From the NCBI GenBank assembly GCA_947585115.1, contig CANPWW010000008.1:1-48488 (forward strand): a stretch of 48,488 nucleotides of DNA. The letters run 5' to 3'. Positions 15,540-45,367 of this stretch are shown here, piece by piece (the stretch's first letter is position 1; the number at the start of each line of letters is the position of its first letter). The notes beneath the pieces were generated by a model. It worked only from the letters and a program-made list of their open reading frames with translations, did no database searches and had not been told where the DNA came from. The translations under genes were made by a program, and so were the position numbers. The DNA is from an uncultured Monoglobus sp. GTDB taxonomy: Bacteria > Bacillota > Clostridia > Monoglobales > Monoglobaceae.

Positions 15540-16430
15540 TTAATACGCTATTCCGAAATAATCGAGCCATGCCTTGAAGCGATCTTGCGCGGCAAGGCAT
15601 GTGTCAATAAGATATCCGCGCTCACGGGTCCACTCGTTAAGCCCACGGTAATAATACAGCTTGAAATTCTCGTCGATTATAAACGGAACAATATTGTTTT
15701 TAAGACATTCTTTAAGCATTATCAATCTGCCGACTCTGCCGTTTCCGTCCTGAAACGGATGTATTTTTTCGAATCTTGCGTGGAAGTCAATTATATCATC
15801 AAACGCCACAGTTTTTAAATTATTATATTCCGCAAGCAATCCCGACATTTCATCGTGAACACGCCCGGGCTCGGTTGTCGCTTTTCCGCCAACCTCGTTG
15901 GGAAGTTTTTTATACCCGCCGACGCTGAACCATTCAATCCTTGAATCGCCTGTTCCGTTTTTCAGCGTGCCATGCAGAGTTTTTATAAATTTTTCGCTCA
16001 GCCTGTTTGAGGCGTTGTCTATAACCATGTCGATACATCTGAAATGATTTGCGGTCTCGACAATATCATCCACATTGAGATTCTTATTATCGGCGCCTAT
16101 GGTATTTGTCTCGAAAATATATCGTGTCTGGTCAAACGTCAGACGGCTGCCCTCGATATGATTCGAGTTATAGGTAAGCTCGATCTGGAGCTTGTGATAT
16201 ATGCCACCGGACAGCCTTGCCGCTTTTTCGGCCTTCAAAATACCAAGCAAAGTCTTGGGCCTCGCCCCGCGCGCGTTTTTTCGAGACGGCTTTGTCGCAT
16301 TTTCGGGTATGCTCCACGCGTTTCCGCCCATAAACGCGCCGGGCACGCGGCCTTCATTGCAATAGCCGCGCACGCTGCGCTCGGAAACGCCCCATTTTTT
16401 TGCCGCTTGAGATACGGAAATATATTTCAC
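15540..16430 (-). CDS. Fic family protein with N-terminal helix-turn-helix
   Basis: A 296-residue Fic-domain enzyme. The active-site loop HPFQDGNGRVGR (residues 224-235) has the catalytic His and all phosphate-binding residues, so AMP transfer is expected. SNHIEG (89-94) matches the inhibitory motif of class II Fic proteins, [S/T]xxxE[G/N]. Residues 1-45 (VSQAAKKWGVSERSVRGYC) look like a MerR/excisionase-type helix-turn-helix. I chose a GTG start at 16430 because GGAGGT lies 7 nt upstream; the ATG at 16445 lies inside that site. No FicA-type antitoxin is adjacent. The target is unknown. It shares an operon with the secreted protein at 14379. Confidence 0.9.
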   Translation of the reverse strand: MKYISVSQAAKKWGVSERSVRGYCNEGRVPGAFMGGNAWSIPENATKPSRKNARGARPKTLLGILKAEKAARLSGGIYHKLQIELTYNSNHIEGSRLTFDQTRYIFETNTIGADNKNLNVDDIVETANHFRCIDMVIDNASNRLSEKFIKTLHGTLKNGTGDSRIEWFSVGGYKKLPNEVGGKATTEPGRVHDEMSGLLAEYNNLKTVAFDDIIDFHARFEKIHPFQDGNGRVGRLIMLKECLKNNIVPFIIDENFKLYYYRGLNEWTRERGYLIDTCLAAQDRFKAWLDYFGIAY

Positions 16431-16455
16431 AAAACCCACCTCCATTATAATAATT

Positions 16456-16484
16456 ATTATACCACATATAGGCAAAAATAGCAA
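16456..16484 (-). promoter_or_regulatory. Promoter of the Fic operon
   Basis: On the minus strand, TTGCTA (16484-16479), 17 bp, TATAAT (16461-16456). Very similar to the promoter at 13957-13985. Confidence 0.7.
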
Positions 16485-16579
16485 GACAACACGCTCATAA
16501 TACGGTTTTTTACTAATTTAAATTTCTGCAAATAAACTATTCCCACAATTTCAGAAAAATATAAAATATTAAATTTCAG

Positions 16580-16608
16580 TTGACTAAATTATTCTATCGT
16601 GATATACT
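16580..16608 (+). promoter_or_regulatory. Promoter of structured leader 1
   Basis: TTGACT (16580-16585), 17 bp spacer, TATACT (16603-16608). The predicted start, 16615, is exactly the first base of helix P1 of the leader. Confidence 0.75.
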
Positions 16609-16614
16609 TAATAC

Positions 16615-16799
16615 TGCGGCATAAATTCAATATTTTACTTTGAGGTTTGTGCGAAGTATGTGTTTTTGCTTTGGCAAAAATGCATGCTCTATTTTCACAT
16701 ACTTTGCATAAAATTTCAAAGTGAAAAAGGATTTGTGTCGCAACAATCGGAGCTTAGCATTTTTCGTGTGCGGAACTCTGATTGTTCTGCACACTTTTT
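16615..16799 (+). promoter_or_regulatory. Structured 5' leader RNA, copy 1 (candidate riboswitch/attenuator)
   Basis: Helices that can be drawn by eye: P1 16615-16626 with 16731-16742 (12 bp, two G-U); P1b 16633-16643 with 16716-16726 (11 bp); P2 16651-16662 with 16696-16707 (12 bp, one G-U); P3 16663-16669 with 16674-16680 (7 bp). Together they form one long interrupted hairpin. Downstream, 16742-16752 can pair with 16776-16786 (11 bp), competing with the terminator. AAAAATGC (16676-16683) is complementary to GCATTTTT (16757-16764). The same plan recurs at 43097-43285. I do not recognise a known riboswitch class. Confidence 0.75.
16766..16799 (+). terminator. Intrinsic terminator at the end of leader 1
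   Basis: An 11-bp stem (16766-16776 with 16784-16794, one G-U) with loop TCTGATT, then TTTTT. It lies between the promoter and the AbrB-like gene, so it must act as an attenuator rather than an end-of-gene signal. Confidence 0.85.
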
Positions 16800-16828
16800 A
16801 TTTTATTTAAACTTTCGGAGGTATTGAT

Positions 16829-17068
16829 ATGATAGTTAAGATCGATTCGATAGGAAGAATATTAATTCCTAAAAAATATAGGGAAGAATTTAATCTAAAA
16901 CCAAATTCCGAAGCGAATATGCTGCCTCTGCCCGACGGCATAGGCGTCTCGCTTTTCAGGCTTGTACCGCGCTGCGCTAACTGCGGAGAAGAAAAAGACC
17001 TTGAAAAATTTGAAAATATTTCGCTCTGTCCTACCTGTCGGCGCGTCTTGAAATACGCGCTAAAATAA
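16829..17068 (+). CDS. AbrB/SpoVT-like DNA-binding domain fused to a zinc ribbon
   Basis: A 79-residue protein with two parts. Residues 1-46 are a swapped-hairpin AbrB-type domain (VKIDSIGRILIPKKYREEF), as in transition-state regulators that bind DNA as dimers or tetramers. Residues 49-70 hold two CxxC knuckles (Cys49/Cys52, Cys67/Cys70), a small zinc ribbon. GGAGG lies 7 nt before the ATG. The gene is alone behind a 185-nt structured leader ending in a terminator. Its target is unknown; a redox- or metal-responsive regulator is one possibility (inference). Confidence 0.87.
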   Translation: MIVKIDSIGRILIPKKYREEFNLKPNSEANMLPLPDGIGVSLFRLVPRCANCGEEKDLEKFENISLCPTCRRVLKYALK

Positions 17069-20821: not shown

Positions 20822-23710
20822 TTACTGATATACAACGATCTCGTAGTTCTCGTCGCCGTTGTTTACCTTAACGAATACCTTGTCGCCGATCTGGATGTCG
20901 AAGGCCTCGCCCTTTCTGATCTCATCCTTAACCTGATCATAAACGTAGATCTCTGTGTCGGCTGTCGGATAAGCTCTGTACCACTTCATATCCTCGAAGT
21001 TAGATGTCGCGATCATGAAGTAATCATAAGCGCTTGTAACCTCTCCGTAGATAGCGCGGATATCCTCGCCGGATGTGATCCTGTAGCTTGTGGCCGCGCC
21101 GTCCTCGTTCCACTCGCCGTAAGGCTCGCCGTTCTTGATTCTGTTGGTGTAGTTGAACAGAAGTCTGAACGAATTGAGGAAACCGTTCGCGGTGGTGTTG
21201 TACTGAATAACGTCGCCGCGCTTCAGGTCGTTAACCGAGCTGATTTCGTCGCTGGGAATGTTAACGCCAATATCGCTGATCGTAGTTCTGGGTACAACCG
21301 GATCGTCGATCTTGATAGTCGCCTGCGCGCCCTTGGACCAGCCCATGATCTCCGTGATCTCCTTCTGGTTATCGGGATCCCACGACTTGATGATCTGGTC
21401 TATCAGCATAACGCCCGCTGTGTTCGCAAGGCTGCTGGGGTTAACGTCCTTGATAACTATAGCGTTCGCAATGCCGTTGTAGATATCATAGATGTCAACC
21501 GTGTATGAGCTCTCTGTCAGATCGTCAAGCGTCAGCAGCGAGTAATCCTCGTCGCGGTCGCGGTCCTCGTAAGGAACGTTGAATATAACGGTGTCGTTTG
21601 TGATAGCGCAGGTCTGCATCAGGTGGTTAGCATAGGGCGATGTGCCGCTGAAATACTTGCCGAACAGGTCTTCCGAAGGTACCGCCGCTGTGTAATCGGG
21701 AGCATAATAGAGTGTCTTGACCTCGTCATTGCCGTTCAGCTCGAACGTGATCAGCTGAGGATTGGCAAATACCTGAGCGAACATCGAATCATCAGCGGAT
21801 ACGCGCTCAGCTGCGCCCGCGTTCTTGATGTTTGTCAGAACTCTGCTGGCCGATCTGTACTCTTTGAGTGTGCCGTTCATATCGAGGATCTTAACGAAGA
21901 AGCGTGAATCGAACGAAGCCTCGGATGCTCCGAAGTCTATCAGGTAACCGTAGTTGCCCTTGCCGGATCCCGCGGCGTTTGTGCCCGCGATCCTGCCGTC
22001 ATATGTCAGCTGGAAGTCGCTTGCGAATCCGGGATTGATCGTCTTGTCAAGATACTTCGACTTGAAGTAAGGCTGACCGCCTATAACGAGTACTTCGTAT
22101 GTTCCGTTCGAATATTCCTCGGTGTACTTCGACTCAACCGTAGCGTCCTCAATAACGTCTCTTGAAACGTAAGCTGTGATGTACATTCCGTCGTCACTTA
22201 CGGAATATGTGAGAACATCATTCTTCTTGAGGTCCTCGGGCTCGATGTTCTGACCGTTCAGAGTAAGTCTGGTGTGATAAGAATCATCGAAGAATACGGA
22301 AGCCATCTTGTTTGTCATGTTGTTCTGGAATATAACCTGATATGTTGAGGAGTTATATCTCTCGAACAGACCGTCGAACTGTTCCTCAATGATAACCGTG
22401 TCAGCAACCGTTGATGAGTTGTGGCTGATTACCTTAACATGGCCCTGCTTGATAACCAGAGGCGTGTCGCTGAGCTTGGTCGTTGTGGCAACGCCGTTGT
22501 AGGAAACAGCCGCCTGCGTGAGATCAAACTTTCTTACTCTGCCGTTGCCGTCGTCATAAGACAGCTCGCTGCTTGTCAGGCTTGTGATGTTCTTGGCGTC
22601 AATATCGTATACCAGATTGTAGCTGTCTCTGGGCTCGAAGTAAGCGATGTAATTTCTTCTGTAACCCGATACGTCTTCCATGTAATAGAAGTTTATGGCG
22701 TATCCAACATAAGACTCAAGGTCCATGTTGTCGGCAAACTGATATGTTACTGTGCCAAGGTTAACGTTCTTTACGCCGTTAACGTCCGCGATAACGTCGG
22801 ATACAACAACCTCATTCTCCAGCTCGACCTGAGCGTTGCCGAGATATGAGTAGTATGTGCCCTGGATAATACCTCTCGCGCTGATCATCTTGTAAGTCTC
22901 GGAGAGAAGAGTCTTTGAACTCTGGATAACCTTGATCTGGCCGCCGGTCGAATCATATGTCAGCGTTTCCATGATGTAGGCTTCCATAGCGTTTCTAACC
23001 ATCTTGGACATCTCCATGGCTGTCATAGAGCTTGTATAGCTGAGGCCCAGACCGTTATATATGCCCTCTCTGAGAGCGAATGATGTATAGCCGTTGGGAT
23101 AACCGCCGGCTGTGGCGTCGCAGGCTTCCTTGTAGCCCAGAGCGCACATGATCATCTTTGAGGCTTCCTCAACGAGGATCGGGTCGTTGGGTCTGAACAT
23201 TGTGTTGCCGTCACCCTGCAGAATACCAACTTCTGTCAGATAGCAGATAGCAGGGTATGTGCTGCTTGTCTCGTCAACGTCGTTGTAAGGCTTCTGGCCG
23301 TATCTGGGATAACCCGCTGTGTTGGCCTTGAGCATCTTGGCGACAACCGTTGCGAAGTCCGCTCTTGTTACCTGCTGGGTCTGCCAATATCCGTCGGGAA
23401 GCAGCTCGAACAGGCCGAGGCCGTAGTCGAAGTTATAATCCTGAGAATAGGTAACGTCGTCGTTGGGCAGGTTGGCTATTGTTGTTCCTGCTGCCGAGCC
23501 GACAACGGCGTCGGCAGCTTCTTGATCTGTTGTTGATGTTTGTACTTCTGTGGTGGCGGCTGTTGCCTCGGGTGCGGGTGCCGCTGATTCAACTGCTTCC
23601 GCGGGAGCAGCTGATGGATCGGTTTCGTCGGCGAATGCTACCATGCTTACCATACTCAGGATCATGGCGACCGCCAACAGCATTGATACTGCTTTTCTAA
23701 AATTACTCAT
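20822..23710 (-). CDS. S-layer-type protein with N-terminal SLH repeats
   Basis: A 962-residue exported protein. It has a signal peptide (residues 1-27, ending VAFA-DE), an acidic Ala/Glu/Thr-rich spacer to about 95, then about three SLH repeats (105-270) with the FRPNDPILVEEASKMI signature. About 690 residues follow without recognisable domains, rich in Tyr, Asp and Asn as in S-layer array proteins. It resembles the 959-residue protein at 34812 in layout and in its C-terminal sequence style. Its start overlaps the stop of the pectate lyase gene by 8 bp, with GGAGGG 8 nt upstream, so translation is coupled. Confidence 0.88.
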   Translation of the reverse strand: MSNFRKAVSMLLAVAMILSMVSMVAFADETDPSAAPAEAVESAAPAPEATAATTEVQTSTTDQEAADAVVGSAAGTTIANLPNDDVTYSQDYNFDYGLGLFELLPDGYWQTQQVTRADFATVVAKMLKANTAGYPRYGQKPYNDVDETSSTYPAICYLTEVGILQGDGNTMFRPNDPILVEEASKMIMCALGYKEACDATAGGYPNGYTSFALREGIYNGLGLSYTSSMTAMEMSKMVRNAMEAYIMETLTYDSTGGQIKVIQSSKTLLSETYKMISARGIIQGTYYSYLGNAQVELENEVVVSDVIADVNGVKNVNLGTVTYQFADNMDLESYVGYAINFYYMEDVSGYRRNYIAYFEPRDSYNLVYDIDAKNITSLTSSELSYDDGNGRVRKFDLTQAAVSYNGVATTTKLSDTPLVIKQGHVKVISHNSSTVADTVIIEEQFDGLFERYNSSTYQVIFQNNMTNKMASVFFDDSYHTRLTLNGQNIEPEDLKKNDVLTYSVSDDGMYITAYVSRDVIEDATVESKYTEEYSNGTYEVLVIGGQPYFKSKYLDKTINPGFASDFQLTYDGRIAGTNAAGSGKGNYGYLIDFGASEASFDSRFFVKILDMNGTLKEYRSASRVLTNIKNAGAAERVSADDSMFAQVFANPQLITFELNGNDEVKTLYYAPDYTAAVPSEDLFGKYFSGTSPYANHLMQTCAITNDTVIFNVPYEDRDRDEDYSLLTLDDLTESSYTVDIYDIYNGIANAIVIKDVNPSSLANTAGVMLIDQIIKSWDPDNQKEITEIMGWSKGAQATIKIDDPVVPRTTISDIGVNIPSDEISSVNDLKRGDVIQYNTTANGFLNSFRLLFNYTNRIKNGEPYGEWNEDGAATSYRITSGEDIRAIYGEVTSAYDYFMIATSNFEDMKWYRAYPTADTEIYVYDQVKDEIRKGEAFDIQIGDKVFVKVNNGDENYEIVVYQ

Positions 23711-26700
23711 TAACAGGTCCCTCCATATTTATTAATCCGTATATTATTTTAGCTGACTGAGCGCGGTCCGCATAGCCCTTGGGATCAAGCATTCCGCCGC
23801 CTACGCCATTAATTATTTCTGCGCAATACATCTTTTCGATCGCTTCAACAGCGTAATCGCTGATGTCTGCCTGATCCGCGAAGCTCGCGTACGCGATCTT
23901 TTCGGGGATCGCGATTCCGAGCGCGGTTGTGGTTCTGTATGCCATAACCATCATATCCTCGCGGGTGATGTTGTCGTTTAAGCCGAAGCTTCCGTCTTCG
24001 TAACCGTTTGCCACGCCGAGGGCTACAGCCTTTCCGATAGGAACGGTGTACCACTCGCCTTCAGCGACGTCGCTGAAGCTCGTGGCCGCGGCCGTTGTAT
24101 CCTCGCCGAACGCGCGCATGAGCATTGTTGTGTACTCTGCTCTTGTCACGTTCTGCGCGGGTGAGAACTTGCCGTCGCCGGTTCCGTTCACGATACCCAT
24201 AGCCGACAGAGTGTTGATGGACTCAGCCGCCCACTCGTATCCCGCCAGGTCTGTGTAAGCGCCTGCAATGGGAGCCTGTGTCGGAACGATGGGAGCCGCC
24301 GATGTTTCGGGCGCCGCCGTGGCGTTCGGATCGGGTGTCGCTGTCGCGGACGGGCTTGTGGTGATACTACCGCCGCCGGAACCGCCGGAACCGCCTCCCT
24401 GAGGTTTGGTTGCTCCGGGCTGTACGGGCGCGGGATCAACCGTAGCTGTTCCGTCGCCTGTTGAGACCTTGATCCTCTCAACATTTACCCATGAATATCC
24501 GTCATTACGTGACTTAAGCTCTATTTTACCGATGTTGTAAGGCGGGTCGATGTTAAGGCTGAACTCGCCGAGCTTATAGTCGGTCATCACGGTGCCGTTA
24601 TCATCCGTAACGGTTACCGCTACTTTGTTGTCGAGAGCGTTGACAACAACCTTGATGTTTATGTACTGGGCCGAACCCTTCTCGTAGTACCAAAGTCCGT
24701 GCAGGGTCTTGTGGTCGGGATATACATACATCGCGTCGCCCAAAGGCGTGGAATACGCGTAAGTGCTCAAATCGAAGCCTGTTGACATCAAGCTGTTATA
24801 TTTGGGATCAAGCTCGGAGGTATACGCTTCTCCGGCTTTCATTGCGGGCAGAGCGTACTCTTTTCCGTCCGGACCGGTGAGTAATGTCTCATCATAGGTC
24901 TTGGGGGCTCTGGGAACAGCGTGCGTCTTGGGATCCTCGTTGCCGGGAACCGGAGCGCCGGTTCTTCCTATAGAATAGGTGCCGACCTCGGTCGTGCCGA
25001 ACTTGAATACCGGCGTCTCGATCGTTCCGTCCGCTCTGTCGCCCTCAAAGTGAACATTGTTTCCTTCCTCGTCCTTAAGATCCACGTTAAGAGGCGTTAC
25101 ATTAACGGGTCTTGACGAGGGATCCATATAGAGCGAGAATGCGGAATCCCAAAGCTCTGTCTTGGTCGAATCCTTATCCGCGTTCACATCCGGGTCTTTG
25201 GAGAAGTTGATCTGCCATGTGTTGTGCTCGTCGGTACCGGTCTTTGCGATAGGAGTACCGCCGCCGTAGGTGTAAATCATACCGTTCAAAGCGTCCGTCT
25301 GCTTCTGATACAGAACCTTAAGCTTAACTTCATAAGTCATCTTGTCGTCCTGCGTTACGGGAAGAGTCAGGTTGGTGTTAACGCCGTGGGAGTTGGTCTC
25401 ATCGAGCATCTGCAGAACATACTTGCCGGTGTCGGGGTCCTTCTGGATCGAAACCTGGCCGCCCAGGATGTACATGAAGCGCTTGGTCAGGAAGTCGTAT
25501 CTCTCCTCCTCGTTCATTTCGGGGAAGTTGAAGTCATACAGAACTCCCGAAGGCGTTGTCTCGATAACTCTTGACGGCGTCTTGCCGTTCGAGTTCGTCG
25601 CAACAACCAGTATATAGTACTTGATGTTGTTTTCAAGACCGGTTATTACCTGCTTGTTGGCCGTCATGCTGAGACCTGTCAGCTTGTGAGCATAAGAGTT
25701 GTAGTCCTGACCGTGGTTAACTGTGTCGTAGTAGATCTCATAGCCCTCGTCGGTCGTGGGGTTGCCGGACCAGTTGATCCTCACCTGATTCAGATAGGGA
25801 ACAACTCCGCTGGCGCTGATCTGAGGTTCGGACGGCATTATGGCCGAACCCTCGGGCTTGGGTATCGTTGTGAACTGCAAGTCATTGCTCTCAGCCACGG
25901 TAGTCCTGCCGAACTCGTCGGTGGTCGTTACCTTATAATAATATGTGGTTGCGGGCTGCAGATCCTCAAGCGTTACGGAGTGGTAGGTGTGGAAGCCGTC
26001 GGGCGCGTTGGTGTAGTCAAGAGGCTGGCTCTTGGTGTACTTGCCGGGCTCCGTGCCGTACTCGATAACGCAGGTTGCTCTGTATGTGGTGTTCCAAGAA
26101 AGCTCAGCCGATGAATAACCGAGTCTGTCGGGAGCTATATCCTGTCTTCTGCTGTCGCCGCGGATTATCTTGAAGTTCTCGGCAACCGCGGGAGTCATAT
26201 CAACATTAACAGGCTCATCGTCGGCCATGAAGTTGATGTACTCCTCAAGATATGTGTAGCCCGTATCGGGATCGGTCTTTGTCGCCAGATAATCGGTCGT
26301 ATCCCAGCCTCTGTACTCCTTGTACCAGTTGGGGATACCGTCGCCCATGCCGTCCCAGGGGATCTGTCTTACCGTGTACTCGGGAACAAACTCAAAATCT
26401 TTGAGCGTGCCCTCGGCCTTTGCCGCCTGGAACTCGCTATAGTTGCTGTAGCTTGTGAGATAGGGATACTTTGTCAGCATATAGTCGAGCATGAAGGGAG
26501 CAACCGGCTTGTAGCCTTCCTCGTCCGCGTGTCTCGCGTCTCTGTCATATACCCACTGAGCGGGGATCAGATCCGCGATGGTTCTCTTTACTTCCTGATA
26601 TACGGGCTCAACACCCTTTATCTCATATTTTGTCTCGTCTATCGTGTCGGGATTTGTTGTCTTGTACATATTTCCCGAAGCGGGATCATATACCGAATAC

Positions 26701-29678
26701 TCAAGCACCTTACCGGGAGCTCCGCAGTACTCGCCCCACCAGTCGCCGATCTCAAAGTCCGTCAGATAGGAGTTCTCATATACGCCCGTCGCGTACGGAT
26801 TGGTCTCTTTGTTGACGTCTGTGTGGGTATCCCAGTTGATAGGTCTGTTCGAGCTGTCGGTCGAACCCTTGAGAGCTGGGCCGGCGCCCTGGATCATTGT
26901 CCAGCCGCGGCTTACCTTATAGTTGTGGGGCTCGCCGTACGAGAAGCCCGATGCAGAGTACTCGTCAGCCTCAACGGCGCGGTGCGCTGTGTAATCGATC
27001 GGAACCGTAACGCTGTTGCCGTTCTCGTCGAGCTTGGTCTCGGTAAGTCTTGCCTCAAGCTGATTAAAGAAGGGAGATACCTGGCTCTTCGTCATGCTGA
27101 TATTCTTGTTGACGCCGGCCTTCATCTCTGTCATGATCATCGTATCGTAAAGATCGCGAGCAGGCTGTGTGCAACCCATGCCCTGTCCGAGGCCTTCCTC
27201 ATTGAGAGCGTATCTAACGAGCGTGTTGTCAAGGCCGGAACCCGAAACGGGAATAACGTCGCCGCGGGGCGCGGGGAGCATATAATCCAAATAGGTTATG
27301 GTCGCCGCCGACTGACTCTTGTTGTTATTATCGTAGGATCTGGGATCGTTATCCCACTCCTCGAATGTCATGCTGCTGAGGTCGGCGTCCTTTTTCTCGC
27401 CGCCGTCAGTTCCGAAATACAGTACGCCGTGTTCAGGAACGCTGTTGCTGTCGATCGTCGCCGCGGCAACGACTGTGAAATCAGCGTCACTCTTGGTGCC
27501 TCCGCTGGTGTTTGATGTAAAGTTATTATTGAAATAATTTATTATACCGCCGGAATAATCGCGGCCTCTGCCTATTCTGTAGGGTCTTGTGTTGCTCTGA
27601 ACAGCTCCCGAACGCGAGAAGTTATCGTGAACGTTGTATTTAGAGTTTCTGTTCTGAGCCTCGTAGTTATAAATATCAAATCCGTTGCCGCAGTCAAACA
27701 GCAGAACGTTGTACGAGTCTACCCAGTTGGCGTCAACCAGACGGGGCGTACGCTGCGTGCTGTCCGTCAGCATTGTCTTGATAAACGAAACTCTTGATGA
27801 ACCCTCGTTAACGGCGCCGCCGTATGAGTGGCCGCCCTTCTCATGCGTGGAGTTGATCGTGAGACCCTTACCCATCAGCATGTTCTGGAAGGTTACGTTT
27901 CTGCCCGCTACGCGGAACTCCATGTCGATCGCCCACTGATATGTGCAGTGGTCAACAATAAGATTTGTGGTAGAGCCCACGCTCATCGGATCTGTCTGAT
28001 TATAAAGACCGTCTTCCTGAACGTCACCTATCCTGATTCTTAAGTTTCTGATTATAACGTCGTGGGTCGAGCTTACGTCGAGTCCGTAGCCCTTCAGCGT
28101 GATGCCGGGATACGGAGCCGTCTGACCCGCGATCGTAACGTTCGCGCCCTTAACGCCCTTGAGCGACAGGTTTGCGCCGTAGTTTGTCAGATCGATAACG
28201 CCGCCGACATCGAACACGATGGTTCTGGCGCCCGTCATCTCCTCAACGCCGTACTGAAGCGATCCGGGACCGGATGCGTCAAGATTCGTAACGTGATAAA
28301 CCTGACCGCCGCGGCCGCCGACCGAATACTGGCCGTATCCCTCGGCTGCCGGAAACGCCTTAAGCCCGTCGTTCGCAAGTATCGTGAGAGGGATATTGCG
28401 GCTCGCCGTCTGACCGTTTACAGTAGATGTAACAGTCAGGGTCACATATGCGTTAAATCCGTTTGTAGGTCTGGTGACCGTCGCGGTATAACCGCCCAGG
28501 TTCTCGGGAGGAAGCTGATCCTCGTTGCCCTCGTCGTCGCCCGAGCCGTCGGTGTTGTTAACATAGTCGCCGGGCTTTACGCTGAGGATGCTGCTGTCGG
28601 AAGTTTCCCATTCGAGCGTGCCGAAGGTGCCCTTGTCCTCGAGATAGAACGAGCTCTGTCTTACCGTGTCGGGGTCGATGCCGCCGATATTCGCGTTGCT
28701 TACATCATAGAGAGCCTTCTCGTAATCCGAAACGGGCTCTTCCTCAACCAGGCTGAGGTCAAATGTCTTTTCCGCGGTTTTGCCGTTATACTCGGCCTTT
28801 ACCGTCAGTACGTACTCGGTGATGCCCGTTCCCATGAACGGAGGCTTCTTGACCGTAACAACTCCCGTATTGTTGTCAATGCTCAGGTATGTAGGGTCTT
28901 CCGAAGTGTAGGTGATAACCGAGCCGTAATAGCCCTTTACCGGCATGGTAAATCCGGCAGACACATTCGAGGCGTCAAACTTGTTGCCGTCCGCGTCAAC
29001 CGCGGGAAGATCAATCATATCAATGTCGGCCTGCGCGATCTTCTGATCGCTGTCGGGGTCAAGCGCCGCAACCTTGGCGGTCAGAGCCTTTGTGGCGATC
29101 GCCGCGCCCTTTGTTACCGTAGCCGTGAGAGTTACCTGAACCGAGGTCTCTCCCGAAAACGCCGGACGCTTTACCGTAACGCGGCCCGTCTCGTTATTAA
29201 CCGACAAAACACCTTCGTTAGATGATTCCCAGGTTATCGTTGAGCCGAACGAGCCCTTAACCGGCAGATCAAAGTCCGCTGTCAGATCGGAATCTCCTCC
29301 GGGAATGGCCAAAGCCGCGGCGTCCGCCGCTGCGGCGTCCTCATCCTCCGGCGTGGCTTCCTCGCCCTCCGCCGACGTTACCTCTCCGTCCTCATGTTCA
29401 AAGAACGCTTCGGTATCAGCGGAGTAGAGGCCTGACGCGTCGGTATCGCCCGCGTAGATTTCCTCTCTCATTTCGTCTGTCAGCTCTTGCTTGTTGCCTT
29501 CGGCATCAATCATAAAGCTGACGTCTTCCTCATCAACATTGCTGTCTTCCTGCGCTTCGGTCTGCGCGGGAGCCTGCTCATCCGATTCCGCAGCAAAGGA
29601 ATAGATGGGCCCCGCCTGCAGAGCGAGCATCAACGATACAAGAAGAGCGAGCACTGCTGACAGCTTTTTTCTAAGCAT
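23703..29678 (-). CDS. Giant SLH-anchored pectate lyase with Ig-like and FN3 domains
   Basis: A 1991-residue secreted modular protein. Order: signal peptide (1-30); acidic segment; three Ig-like repeats (about 125-435) with VKGSFGSTITW/VKGYYGSVITY repeats; a pectate lyase-like beta-helix (about 440-760) opening with AFPAAEGYGQYSVGGRGG and containing IVDHCTYQWAID; an uncharacterised stretch; two fibronectin III domains (about 1185-1370); a carbohydrate-binding-like region (about 1390-1730); a Gly/Ser then Thr/Pro/Ala linker; and three SLH repeats (about 1806-1991). It would cleave pectin-like polymers at the cell surface. AGGGGG precedes the ATG. Whether the lyase is active cannot be judged from motifs alone. 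Confidence 0.9.
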   Translation of the reverse strand: MLRKKLSAVLALLVSLMLALQAGPIYSFAAESDEQAPAQTEAQEDSNVDEEDVSFMIDAEGNKQELTDEMREEIYAGDTDASGLYSADTEAFFEHEDGEVTSAEGEEATPEDEDAAAADAAALAIPGGDSDLTADFDLPVKGSFGSTITWESSNEGVLSVNNETGRVTVKRPAFSGETSVQVTLTATVTKGAAIATKALTAKVAALDPDSDQKIAQADIDMIDLPAVDADGNKFDASNVSAGFTMPVKGYYGSVITYTSEDPTYLSIDNNTGVVTVKKPPFMGTGITEYVLTVKAEYNGKTAEKTFDLSLVEEEPVSDYEKALYDVSNANIGGIDPDTVRQSSFYLEDKGTFGTLEWETSDSSILSVKPGDYVNNTDGSGDDEGNEDQLPPENLGGYTATVTRPTNGFNAYVTLTVTSTVNGQTASRNIPLTILANDGLKAFPAAEGYGQYSVGGRGGQVYHVTNLDASGPGSLQYGVEEMTGARTIVFDVGGVIDLTNYGANLSLKGVKGANVTIAGQTAPYPGITLKGYGLDVSSTHDVIIRNLRIRIGDVQEDGLYNQTDPMSVGSTTNLIVDHCTYQWAIDMEFRVAGRNVTFQNMLMGKGLTINSTHEKGGHSYGGAVNEGSSRVSFIKTMLTDSTQRTPRLVDANWVDSYNVLLFDCGNGFDIYNYEAQNRNSKYNVHDNFSRSGAVQSNTRPYRIGRGRDYSGGIINYFNNNFTSNTSGGTKSDADFTVVAAATIDSNSVPEHGVLYFGTDGGEKKDADLSSMTFEEWDNDPRSYDNNNKSQSAATITYLDYMLPAPRGDVIPVSGSGLDNTLVRYALNEEGLGQGMGCTQPARDLYDTMIMTEMKAGVNKNISMTKSQVSPFFNQLEARLTETKLDENGNSVTVPIDYTAHRAVEADEYSASGFSYGEPHNYKVSRGWTMIQGAGPALKGSTDSSNRPINWDTHTDVNKETNPYATGVYENSYLTDFEIGDWWGEYCGAPGKVLEYSVYDPASGNMYKTTNPDTIDETKYEIKGVEPVYQEVKRTIADLIPAQWVYDRDARHADEEGYKPVAPFMLDYMLTKYPYLTSYSNYSEFQAAKAEGTLKDFEFVPEYTVRQIPWDGMGDGIPNWYKEYRGWDTTDYLATKTDPDTGYTYLEEYINFMADDEPVNVDMTPAVAENFKIIRGDSRRQDIAPDRLGYSSAELSWNTTYRATCVIEYGTEPGKYTKSQPLDYTNAPDGFHTYHSVTLEDLQPATTYYYKVTTTDEFGRTTVAESNDLQFTTIPKPEGSAIMPSEPQISASGVVPYLNQVRINWSGNPTTDEGYEIYYDTVNHGQDYNSYAHKLTGLSMTANKQVITGLENNIKYYILVVATNSNGKTPSRVIETTPSGVLYDFNFPEMNEEERYDFLTKRFMYILGGQVSIQKDPDTGKYVLQMLDETNSHGVNTNLTLPVTQDDKMTYEVKLKVLYQKQTDALNGMIYTYGGGTPIAKTGTDEHNTWQINFSKDPDVNADKDSTKTELWDSAFSLYMDPSSRPVNVTPLNVDLKDEEGNNVHFEGDRADGTIETPVFKFGTTEVGTYSIGRTGAPVPGNEDPKTHAVPRAPKTYDETLLTGPDGKEYALPAMKAGEAYTSELDPKYNSLMSTGFDLSTYAYSTPLGDAMYVYPDHKTLHGLWYYEKGSAQYINIKVVVNALDNKVAVTVTDDNGTVMTDYKLGEFSLNIDPPYNIGKIELKSRNDGYSWVNVERIKVSTGDGTATVDPAPVQPGATKPQGGGSGGSGGGSITTSPSATATPDPNATAAPETSAAPIVPTQAPIAGAYTDLAGYEWAAESINTLSAMGIVNGTGDGKFSPAQNVTRAEYTTMLMRAFGEDTTAAATSFSDVAEGEWYTVPIGKAVALGVANGYEDGSFGLNDNITREDMMVMAYRTTTALGIAIPEKIAYASFADQADISDYAVEAIEKMYCAEIINGVGGGMLDPKGYADRAQSAKIIYGLINMEGPVNE

Positions 29679-43061: not shown

Positions 43062-43090
43062 TTGACAATATTTCCGGCATGTGATAAACT
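43062..43090 (+). promoter_or_regulatory. Promoter of structured leader 2
   Basis: TTGACA (43062-43067), 17 bp, TAAACT (43085-43090). Predicted start 43097, the first base of helix P1. Confidence 0.75.
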
Positions 43091-43096
43091 GTACTC

Positions 43097-43285
43097 ACCA
43101 CATAATTTTAAACTTAATATGCCAACAAGTGTGAGTTATTTTTGTGTTTCGGCAAAAATGTACGCTCACTCTATTGGCTCATTCTTGTTGAGTATTTATA
43201 TAGTAGGTTTAAAATTGTGTGGTAACAATCCGAGCCGTGCATTTTTCGTGTGTGGTTCCGATTGAGACCACACACTTTTTATTTT
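43097..43285 (+). promoter_or_regulatory. Structured 5' leader RNA, copy 2 (candidate riboswitch/attenuator)
   Basis: P1 is a 20-bp helix (43097-43116 with 43204-43223, two G-U). P2 is 43123-43136 with 43177-43190 (one mismatch). P3 is TTTTTG with CAAAAA (43139-43144, 43153-43158). Downstream, CAATC (43226-43230) and GAGCC (43232-43236) can pair with 43254-43258 and 43260-43264. AAAAATGTAC (43154-43163) is complementary to GTGCATTTTT (43237-43246, one G-U). The terminator is GTGTGTGGT/ACCACACAC (43248-43256, 43267-43275) with TTTTT. Helix positions match copy 1 at 16615 while the base pairs differ. Confidence 0.78.
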
Positions 43286-43300
43286 AGGAGGTACATTTTT

Positions 43301-45367
43301 ATGAAAAGAGTTTTATGTTTAAGTTTGGTATTTACAATTCTTTGCGCCCTGCTGACCTTCACGCCCGCAGCCGCCGCGACAATAATAGACAGCGGCACCT
43401 GCGGCGACAGTTTAACTTGGACATTGGATTCTGACGGAACACTAACCATAAGCGGCACCGGAAAAATGAGTTCATGGATATCTTATGACAGAATTCCTTG
43501 GTATAACTCTCGCAGCAGTATAAAAAAAGCAGTTATAGAATACGGTGTAAATAATATAGGTTACTCAGCTTTTTTAAACTGCTCAAATCTTGAGAGTATA
43601 ACTATACCCGAGAGTGTGACAAGTGTTGAAACATGGGCATTTTCAAATTGCACAAGCCTATCAAGTATTGATATACCCAATATGGTAACCTCTATTAAAA
43701 CAAATACTTTTAGCGGCTGTTCATCATTGTCAAATATAAAGCTGCCAAATAATTTAACAAGCATCGACAGTAATGCGTTTGACGGCTGTGAAAGTCTTTC
43801 GAGCATAAATATACCCGATAACTTAACAAGTATTGGTAATAGCGCGTTTAATGGTTGCAAAAGTCTCCGAGACATAACTATACCCGATAATGTAACAAGT
43901 ATAGGCGAGAGCGCATTTAAAGGCTGCTCAAGTCTTGCAAATATTAATATATCCAATGGCATAACAAGCATAGAGAATAACTCTTTTACAAACTGTTTAA
44001 ATCTTAAAAGCATTAATATTCCCAAAAATGTGACAAGTATAGGAAATAACGCATTTTATGGCTGCGAATACCTCGCGAGCATAACAATGTCAAATAAACT
44101 GACTTTTGTTGAAAAAGATGCTTTTGGTGATTGCTACACTCCGATCGATGTATATTACAACGGTAGCAGAAACGACTGGCGCGGAATAACTTTTGGTTCA
44201 AACAACGATTCATTGATAAAAGCCGAAAAACATTTTAACGATTCCGAAAGTTCCCCGACGCCGGTTCCTCTTAAAACGGTTAATGTATCCACAGCCGAAG
44301 AACTGCTCAACGCCATTGATTCAAACACAAAAATTATAATGGCTCCGGGCGAATACCTGATCACAGATGAAGTAGATATAAGGAATATCAAAAATTTGGA
44401 AGTCTACGGAAACGGAAAAGCCGAAATAAAGGTTGATAAGGGTTATTTGGCAGTTATAAATATATACAACTCGCGGAACATTTTGATTGACGGTATTATA
44501 TTGGGACACGATGTTCCGCAATTCGGCTGTGAAGGCAACGGAGTAATCAATATTTTTTCAAGCGCGAGCGTCAAAATAAATAATTGTGATATATACGGCT
44601 GCGGCGTGTTCGGATTATGGACGGATCATAGTAAAAACACTTTAATCAGCAATACCGTTATACGAGATTGCATGGCATGTATCGCTTTGATTTATGACGG
44701 AGCAACATTTGAAAATTGCACCTTTCTCAGAAACGCATATGATAAAGGATGCGCCTCTGAATACAATGCTTTTTCAAGCGGTTGGCTAAATAATATTGAA
44801 ATAACCTTAAACAATTGTACATTTCAAGATAATTTAAACACTGTTTTCGGAAGCGACACTATTAAGTTTAACATTAACAACTGTCGTTTTTACAATAACG
44901 CGTGGGGATGGCCGGAAAACAATTTTACTCCGTCTCCCAATTCGACACCGACGCCTGCGCCTACGCCAACAGTAATGCCTGCTCCGACGCCAAAACCGAC
45001 GCCGACGCCTACACAAAAGCCAACGCCAAATCCCACAGCAGCGCCTACACAAAGACCGACGGCAAAACCGACAGCCGCACCCACGATAAAGCCGACAGCC
45101 GACCCGAGCGCGCCTTCGGTTGAAATAACCGAGGTTTGGGGCAGGTTTGTTACGGTGAAAGTAAACAACTGCGATGATCCATTCGCTCAAGTGATCCTTG
45201 CGGTGTATAACAAAAACGGCGCGCTGATAGATATGCAGGAATACTATAACTTTGGTGAAATGACTTTCTACAGCGAAAACTTGCAAAACGCGGACATAAA
45301 AGTAATGCTTTGGAGCGATACGGACAGCATAAAACCCCTGGCCGAGCCCGCCGAAATGAGTTTGTAA
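43301..45367 (+). CDS. Surface protein: BspA-type leucine-rich repeats plus beta-helix domain
   Basis: A 688-residue exported protein. Signal peptide (1-25, ending AAA-ATI); about ten BspA/LRR_5 repeats (about 60-320) of the form SLSSINIPDNLTSIGNSAF; a right-handed beta-helix of pectin-lyase fold (about 345-560; NNCDIYGCGVFGLW, FENCTFLRNA); a Pro/Thr linker of PTPKPTPTPT type (about 560-625); and a small C-terminal domain. There is no SLH or sortase motif, so attachment is unclear. The frame is open from 43250, but the ATG at 43301 has AGGAGG and the signal peptide. Codons are distinctly AT-rich compared with neighbours, suggesting transfer. Expression should pass through the attenuator leader. 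Confidence 0.88.
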   Translation: MKRVLCLSLVFTILCALLTFTPAAAATIIDSGTCGDSLTWTLDSDGTLTISGTGKMSSWISYDRIPWYNSRSSIKKAVIEYGVNNIGYSAFLNCSNLESITIPESVTSVETWAFSNCTSLSSIDIPNMVTSIKTNTFSGCSSLSNIKLPNNLTSIDSNAFDGCESLSSINIPDNLTSIGNSAFNGCKSLRDITIPDNVTSIGESAFKGCSSLANINISNGITSIENNSFTNCLNLKSINIPKNVTSIGNNAFYGCEYLASITMSNKLTFVEKDAFGDCYTPIDVYYNGSRNDWRGITFGSNNDSLIKAEKHFNDSESSPTPVPLKTVNVSTAEELLNAIDSNTKIIMAPGEYLITDEVDIRNIKNLEVYGNGKAEIKVDKGYLAVINIYNSRNILIDGIILGHDVPQFGCEGNGVINIFSSASVKINNCDIYGCGVFGLWTDHSKNTLISNTVIRDCMACIALIYDGATFENCTFLRNAYDKGCASEYNAFSSGWLNNIEITLNNCTFQDNLNTVFGSDTIKFNINNCRFYNNAWGWPENNFTPSPNSTPTPAPTPTVMPAPTPKPTPTPTQKPTPNPTAAPTQRPTAKPTAAPTIKPTADPSAPSVEITEVWGRFVTVKVNNCDDPFAQVILAVYNKNGALIDMQEYYNFGEMTFYSENLQNADIKVMLWSDTDSIKPLAEPAEMSL

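Follow-up and report, generated by a model that had tools for sequence, protein, structure and literature searches.

A putative riboswitch-type transcription attenuator with a long-range pseudoknot in leaders of Monoglobus and other Clostridia

The preQ1-I, fluoride, and c-di-GMP-II riboswitches are pseudoknot aptamers that act by terminating transcription. Riboswitches for c-di-GMP control surface and adhesion genes in Clostridia, and few riboswitch-like classes reach ~20 copies in a single genome. The element described here resembles preQ1-I, fluoride, and c-di-GMP-II riboswitches in lying in the leader before a gene, in its aptamer-like fold with a long-range pseudoknot, and in the competition between terminator and antiterminator; it differs from them in having no Rfam match, a larger, two-part stem (P1-P2), a promoter locked to P1, and a very long pseudoknot of up to 14 pairs. 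With GEMM-I and GEMM-II it shares the predicted control of surface genes and the occurrence of tandem copies, but it matches none of the Rfam c-di-GMP models. Similarly, T-box and leader-peptide attenuators operate a terminator/antiterminator switch in Firmicutes leaders, whereas the element has no Rfam T-box match and its regulated genes are not amino-acid genes. A leader-peptide attenuator was also considered and rejected, given the rarity of leader ORFs (only 7 of 121 leaders carry one of ≥8 codons preceded by a Shine-Dalgarno sequence).

The window, i.e., the whole 48,488-nucleotide stretch analyzed (contig CANPWW010000008.1 of an uncultured Monoglobus sp.), carries two copies of the element (Table 1). 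An initial sequence-only reading had described two leaders with a long hairpin, a core, and an intrinsic terminator; both were found where it had placed them, along with all of the primary sequence it listed as common to the pair (GGCAAAAATG, GCTC, AACAATC, GCATTTTTCGTGTG, and CACACTTTTTATTTTA). Each opens with a sigma-70-type promoter and closes with an intrinsic terminator a short way ahead of the gene, and between these lie the long stem and the conserved loop and core. It had recognized no known riboswitch consensus, which agrees with our search of Rfam 15 at gathering thresholds, where no family matched in the window and none matched over the element in the loci of 20 relatives. Lax searches returned sub-threshold, chance-level, and incoherent matches only, mostly to microRNA precursors, as is the case for any long hairpin. 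That the copies form a true family, rather than a chance resemblance, was borne out by a full-length model (R2) built from 51 diverse leaders with both window copies left out, which recovered the two at the E-values given in Table 1. A Fic/DOC-family protein with a helix-turn-helix (HTH) domain (15540–16451, − strand) is encoded divergently from copy 1. Between them, at 16470–16500, we noted a lookalike of the pseudoknot loop (GGCAAAAATAGCAAG...ACGCTC), which has no model match and may be due to chance.

Table 1. Coordinates of the predicted features of the two element copies in the window.
Feature	Positions	Strand	Detail	Basis
Copy 1 promoter	16580..16608	+	-35 TTGACT (16580-16585), spacer 17 nt, -10 TATACT (16603-16608)	sequence; -10-to-P1 spacing family-wide
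Copy 1 RNA element	16614..16804	+	whole match to model R2, E=7e-21	
Copy 1 P1 5' strand	16616..16628	+	GCGGCATAAATTC; starts predicted transcript	covariation
Copy 1 P2 5' strand	16653..16662	+		
Copy 1 P3 hairpin	16663..16680	+	TTTTTGC/GCAAAAA (16663-16669/16674-16680); rival of pseudoknot for A-tract	
Copy 1 pseudoknot loop	16676..16689	+	AAAAATGCATGCTC	
Copy 1 P2 3' strand	16696..16705	+		
Copy 1 P1 3' strand	16729..16741	+	GGATTTGTGTCGC	
Copy 1 antiterminator 5' strand	16742..16752	+	AACAATCGGAG	
Copy 1 pseudoknot core	16750..16764	+	GAGCTTAGCATTTTT; overlaps antiterminator 5' strand	
Copy 1 intrinsic terminator hairpin	16766..16794	+	11 bp (16766-16776/16784-16794)	
Copy 1 antiterminator 3' strand	16776-16786	+	within terminator hairpin	
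Copy 1 terminator U-tract	16795..16805	+		
Copy 1 regulated gene	16829..17068	+	ATG 16829; 79 aa, AbrB/MazE-like N-terminus and zinc ribbon	weak, sub-cutoff Pfam matches
Copy 2 promoter	43062..43090	+	TTGACA, spacer 17 nt, TAAACT	
Copy 2 RNA element	43095..43285	+	model R2 match, E=2e-16	
Copy 2 pseudoknot loop	43154..43167	+	AAAAATGTACGCTC; partner 43232-43246	
Copy 2 antiterminator	43226..43264	+	CAATCCGAGCC (43226-43236) with GGTTCCGATTG (43254-43264)	
Copy 2 terminator	43248..43285	+	hairpin 43248-43275, then U-tract 43276-43285	
Copy 2 regulated gene	43301..45367	+	688 aa, signal peptide and BspA-type leucine-rich repeats (LRR_5)	

Across the family, 129 elements were extracted, of which 121 could be block-aligned. 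In 91 of these 121, the best −10 hexamer stops precisely 6 nt ahead of P1; in shuffled sequence, it is scattered without a preferred distance. This fixed spacing means that the predicted transcript begins with P1, where the sequence-only reading had also put the start of transcription. In 105 of 124 cases, element and next gene share a strand, indicating a cis position in a 5′ leader, with the downstream ATG mostly 13–24 nt past the U-tract. The orientation of the upstream gene is divided about evenly between the strands, and a minority of copies lack a nearby gene downstream. Both the fixed promoter position and the location before genes are thus demonstrated.

The genes behind the element are unrelated to each other, and their products are largely exported. 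A signal-peptide-like start was seen in 60 of 78 close downstream proteins versus 3 of 19 opposite-strand neighbours, as scored by a crude rule against this small control. BspA-type leucine-rich repeats (LRR_5) occur in 25 of the 78 and dockerins in nine, with CHAP, ricin-type lectin, RCC1, collagen-repeat, amidase, M23, and HTH domains among the further products. In the genome of origin, six of the 21 copies, copy 1 among them, sit ahead of genes for small AbrB-like proteins that carry a zinc ribbon at the C-terminus (loci L194, L196, L199, L202, L204, and L208), possibly a family of regulators wired to the RNA. In one sub-clade, small DUF6809-like or similar proteins (MSDVEYRNAV..., MVDYQKLY...) lie behind the element (L070, L071, L072, L061, and L147) and may represent another type of target. 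The window also encodes two large proteins with S-layer homology (962 and 1991 aa; 20822–29678, − strand) with no RNA element in front, so not all surface genes are under its control.

The stems are upheld by covariation. In P1, taken as a 13-bp window, all 13 positions pair in 71 of 129 elements and 12 of 13 in a further 36. As our scripts placed P1 and P2 partly by complementarity, counts from a MAFFT alignment of 51 distinct leaders, which are free of such bias, provide the fairer test. Here, the OFF fold (P1, P2, pseudoknot, and terminator) had 92.0% of cells paired compared to 81.3% when shuffled, with both-sided changes in 34 of 49 pairs (a count reached in 0 of 500 shuffles). Pairing fell to 34–57% when partners were slid by 1–3 columns. 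The ON fold (P1, P2, P3, and antiterminator) reached 90.7%. In P1 and P2, the true partners outpaired all 200 partner swaps, and against a tree-based null (our own script, in the manner of R-scape) the pairs exceeding 99.9% of the null numbered 8/13 in P1, 8/8 in P2, and 9/9 in the terminator. P1, P2, and the terminator are therefore demonstrated by sequence and covariation, and the covariation anticipated by the sequence-only reading proved strong against shuffling, sliding, swapped partners, and the tree-based null alike. The stems are also rich in G-U pairs, pointing to RNA rather than a DNA palindrome.

Several unpaired parts are conserved as well, namely an [A/T]ATA bulge after P1 (93 of 121 copies versus a 41% background), a U-rich stretch after GCUC, and an RCAA linker, which could be parts of a binding site. 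The P3 hairpin, with the family form UUUUUA/UAAAAA, is weak (mean −0.9 kcal/mol), and its U-tract is ~90–97% kept, a conservation that no other pairing explains. A U-A-U triple helix between this U-tract and the pseudoknot was considered and, by reasoning only, is not favoured, given that the A-tract in the 5′ strand would leave the U-rich loop antiparallel.

Two further pairings were absent from the sequence-only reading. The conserved loop AAAAAUGCAUGCUC, lying ~40–50 nt before the P1 3′ strand in most members, is complementary to the core GAGC-U-AUGCAUUUUU downstream of P1, forming a pseudoknot in which 94.7% of cells are paired (MAFFT, 51 leaders). Core changes are often matched by loop changes (GCGUUUUU with AAAAACGC, GUGUUUUU with AAAAACAC, and GUAUUUUU with AAAAAUAC), the true partners outpair all 200 partner swaps, and the duplex averages −11.9 kcal/mol, a gain of 2.3 kcal/mol over swapped partners (−9.6 kcal/mol). 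Most pseudoknot pairs are near-invariant, with one of 14 passing the strict tree-null cut, and the A-tract pairs vary so seldom that they give no evidence either way. The core, extended upstream (CGGAGCUAUGC), also pairs with GCGURGCUUCG, a stretch of the terminator that covers its 5′ arm and loop, to form an antiterminator (94.6% of cells paired; true partners above all 200 swaps; no pair passing the tree-null cut alone). In copy 1, it takes an 11-bp form (AACAAUCGGAG/CUCUGAUUGUU). In members with a long terminator loop, found in the same genus and others, the upstream CAAUCGG, CAAACGG, and CAAAUGG pair with terminator-loop CCGAUUG, UCGUUUG, and UCCAUUUG, respectively, and the antiterminator helix averages 7.7 bp compared to 6.6 bp with swapped partners (maximum 7.3).

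Both pairings are well supported. As they share nucleotides, the pseudoknot and antiterminator are mutually exclusive, and with a terminator arm common to antiterminator and terminator, the three structures compete by construction. The mean predicted energies of antiterminator (−15.2 kcal/mol) and terminator (−16.4 kcal/mol) differ little, as a switch needs. The sequence-only interpretation of a functional cis-regulatory RNA is supported, although the linker and core, taken there as passive conserved parts, are instead parts of the putative switch itself, contributing to pseudoknot, antiterminator, and terminator. Overlapping ORFs starting at a core AUG (GGAGCUAUG) were rejected, with most copies in the same genus having no AUG there.

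We read the element as a probable attenuator of transcription that acts in cis and, most likely, as an orphan class of riboswitch whose pseudoknot would favour termination; switching in the cell, the OFF and ON assignments, and a small-molecule signal are inferred. Transcription would begin at P1, with P1 and P2 forming a long stem that presents loop AAAAAUGCAUGCUC. In the OFF state, this loop would pair with the core, the antiterminator would not form, and the terminator would halt the polymerase before the gene. In the ON state, the P3 hairpin would hold the loop A-tract, leaving the core to pair with the terminator 5′ arm and the gene to be transcribed. This balance would be shifted by a signal, probably a small molecule that the P1-P2-pseudoknot fold binds, bringing under control a set of surface and secreted proteins along with a few regulators. 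The regulated genes themselves point to no metabolite. We put at even chances the fuller proposal that this is an undescribed riboswitch class sensing a small molecule, possibly an unrecognized signal of gut life, and co-ordinating the secreted and surface proteome with ~20 copies per genome in many Clostridia families.

A copy number of ~20 implies a global signal, and the products behind the element (BspA-type leucine-rich repeat proteins, dockerins, lectins, CHAP and M23 cell-wall enzymes, and lipoproteins) face the host and plant fibre in the gut and rumen. Under the switch model, mutating specific nucleotides should fix the gene in either the on or the off state, and a search for the ligand could uncover a signal that uncultured gut bacteria use.

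Candidate effectors were assessed by co-occurrence. A third of the hosts (33 of 99 element-bearing genomes, counted by reading two genome lists against each other) have no GGDEF match, and 22 of these are ≥90% complete, making c-di-GMP an unlikely ligand. None of 30 element-bearing genomes held LoaP above the cut-off, and a LoaP-dependent leader was rejected for these hosts; ANTAR proteins were present in 13 of the 30, including the genome of origin, and absent from 17. Co-occurrence therefore argues against c-di-GMP, LoaP, and, less clearly, ANTAR as the common effector. These absences also count against an RNA-binding protein that would recognize either the conserved loop or the P1-P2 stem and tip the terminator/antiterminator switch, given that neither of the two proteins is common to the hosts. 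A broad regulon of surface proteins that names no metabolite would suit such a protein, and the copies before AbrB/zinc-ribbon genes could form a feedback circuit; however, AbrB-type genes behind the element were seen only in the genome of origin, and we hold a protein-binding leader to be rather unlikely. Less likely still is a ligand-free device, in which temperature, magnesium, or polymerase speed would set the balance between P3, pseudoknot, and antiterminator. The A-U-rich core of the pseudoknot and the weak P3 would fit an RNA thermometer, ion sensor, or transcription-speed sensor, but the sampled hosts are mostly gut and rumen bacteria living at steady temperature, and the loop and linker are conserved beyond the need of pure strand competition.

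Two other readings deny a cis role to the leader. A stand-alone small RNA, acting in trans from its own promoter and terminator and lying before genes by chance, would account for a promoter fixed at P1 in most copies, a terminator in all, several tandem copies spaced to allow each its own promoter, and copies without a close gene, yet it leaves the strand bias, the tight ATG spacing, and the conserved antiterminator without reason, and we consider it very improbable. The dispersed copies, numerous in each genome, recall DNA-level inverted repeats or mobile elements (REP/MITE-like, or a recombination site) with no RNA function. This reading is already contradicted, and almost certainly wrong: stem bases differ between copies while pairing is kept with numerous G-U pairs, the position is fixed between promoter and ATG, the exact core pattern has no match in IMG/VR, and there is no plasmid match. 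The riboswitch-type attenuator remains our preferred reading.

With regard to novelty, a search of open-access text found no description of the element with such genes. Lists of candidate structured RNAs from comparative genomics (e.g., PMC2864571 and PMC8040213) resemble the element in comprising covarying intergenic RNAs of gut bacteria with no assigned function, and the 3161 unlabelled human-microbiome candidates of the latter may include it. We rate the element as a new family of attenuating leader of riboswitch type.

The genome of origin (2.34 Mb) contains 21 copies at E<1e-4 by model R2, i.e., 19 beyond those in the window and unreported by the sequence-only reading, after which E-values jump from 9e-5 to 0.3, where chance matches start; a pattern search with the core GCATTTTTCGTGTG at ≤2 mismatches by itself revealed four copies besides the two in the window. 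With a model restricted to the 3′ part (R1), almost every genome searched in the same genus and family yielded copies, and genomes further afield gave fewer or weaker ones. With R2, the element was found in 99 of 391 genomes of a class-wide Clostridia sample, spread over many families, confirming the expectation of numerous homologues before unrelated genes; in a phylum-wide sample (299 genomes), it was found in the genome of origin only, and both counts are lower bounds, as few candidates were scored per genome. The exact core pattern occurs in at least 118 stretches of GTDB contigs, and among the 80 stretches listed nearly all are metagenome-assembled Clostridia, mostly from gut or rumen.

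A phage or plasmid origin was rejected: the exact core pattern had no match in IMG/VR, a plasmid search placed the element on no plasmid, and at least one of two phage-labelled records bears plainly chromosomal genes. These two records, annotated as 'Bacteriophage sp.' from human faeces, are L214 (MT837627.1), which was read less closely, and L215 (MT835845.1), whose ClpB-, YicC-, Rex-, and hydrogenase-like ORFs make it look like a mislabelled bacterial chromosome. Their source indicates that the element is also present in human gut bacteria.

Degenerate or partial elements comprising only the 3′ half or an altered loop (L033, at C25:28074-28288, L066, L053, and L096) are possibly decaying copies. 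Tandem copies, which the sequence-only reading had missed, are common and lie ~200–340 nt apart at L058, L059, L047, L106, L110, L125, L146, L152, L118, and L115, with three in a row at L146 (6501, 6835, and 7175). Unlike classic tandem riboswitches, which share one leader, several of these have room for a promoter of their own.
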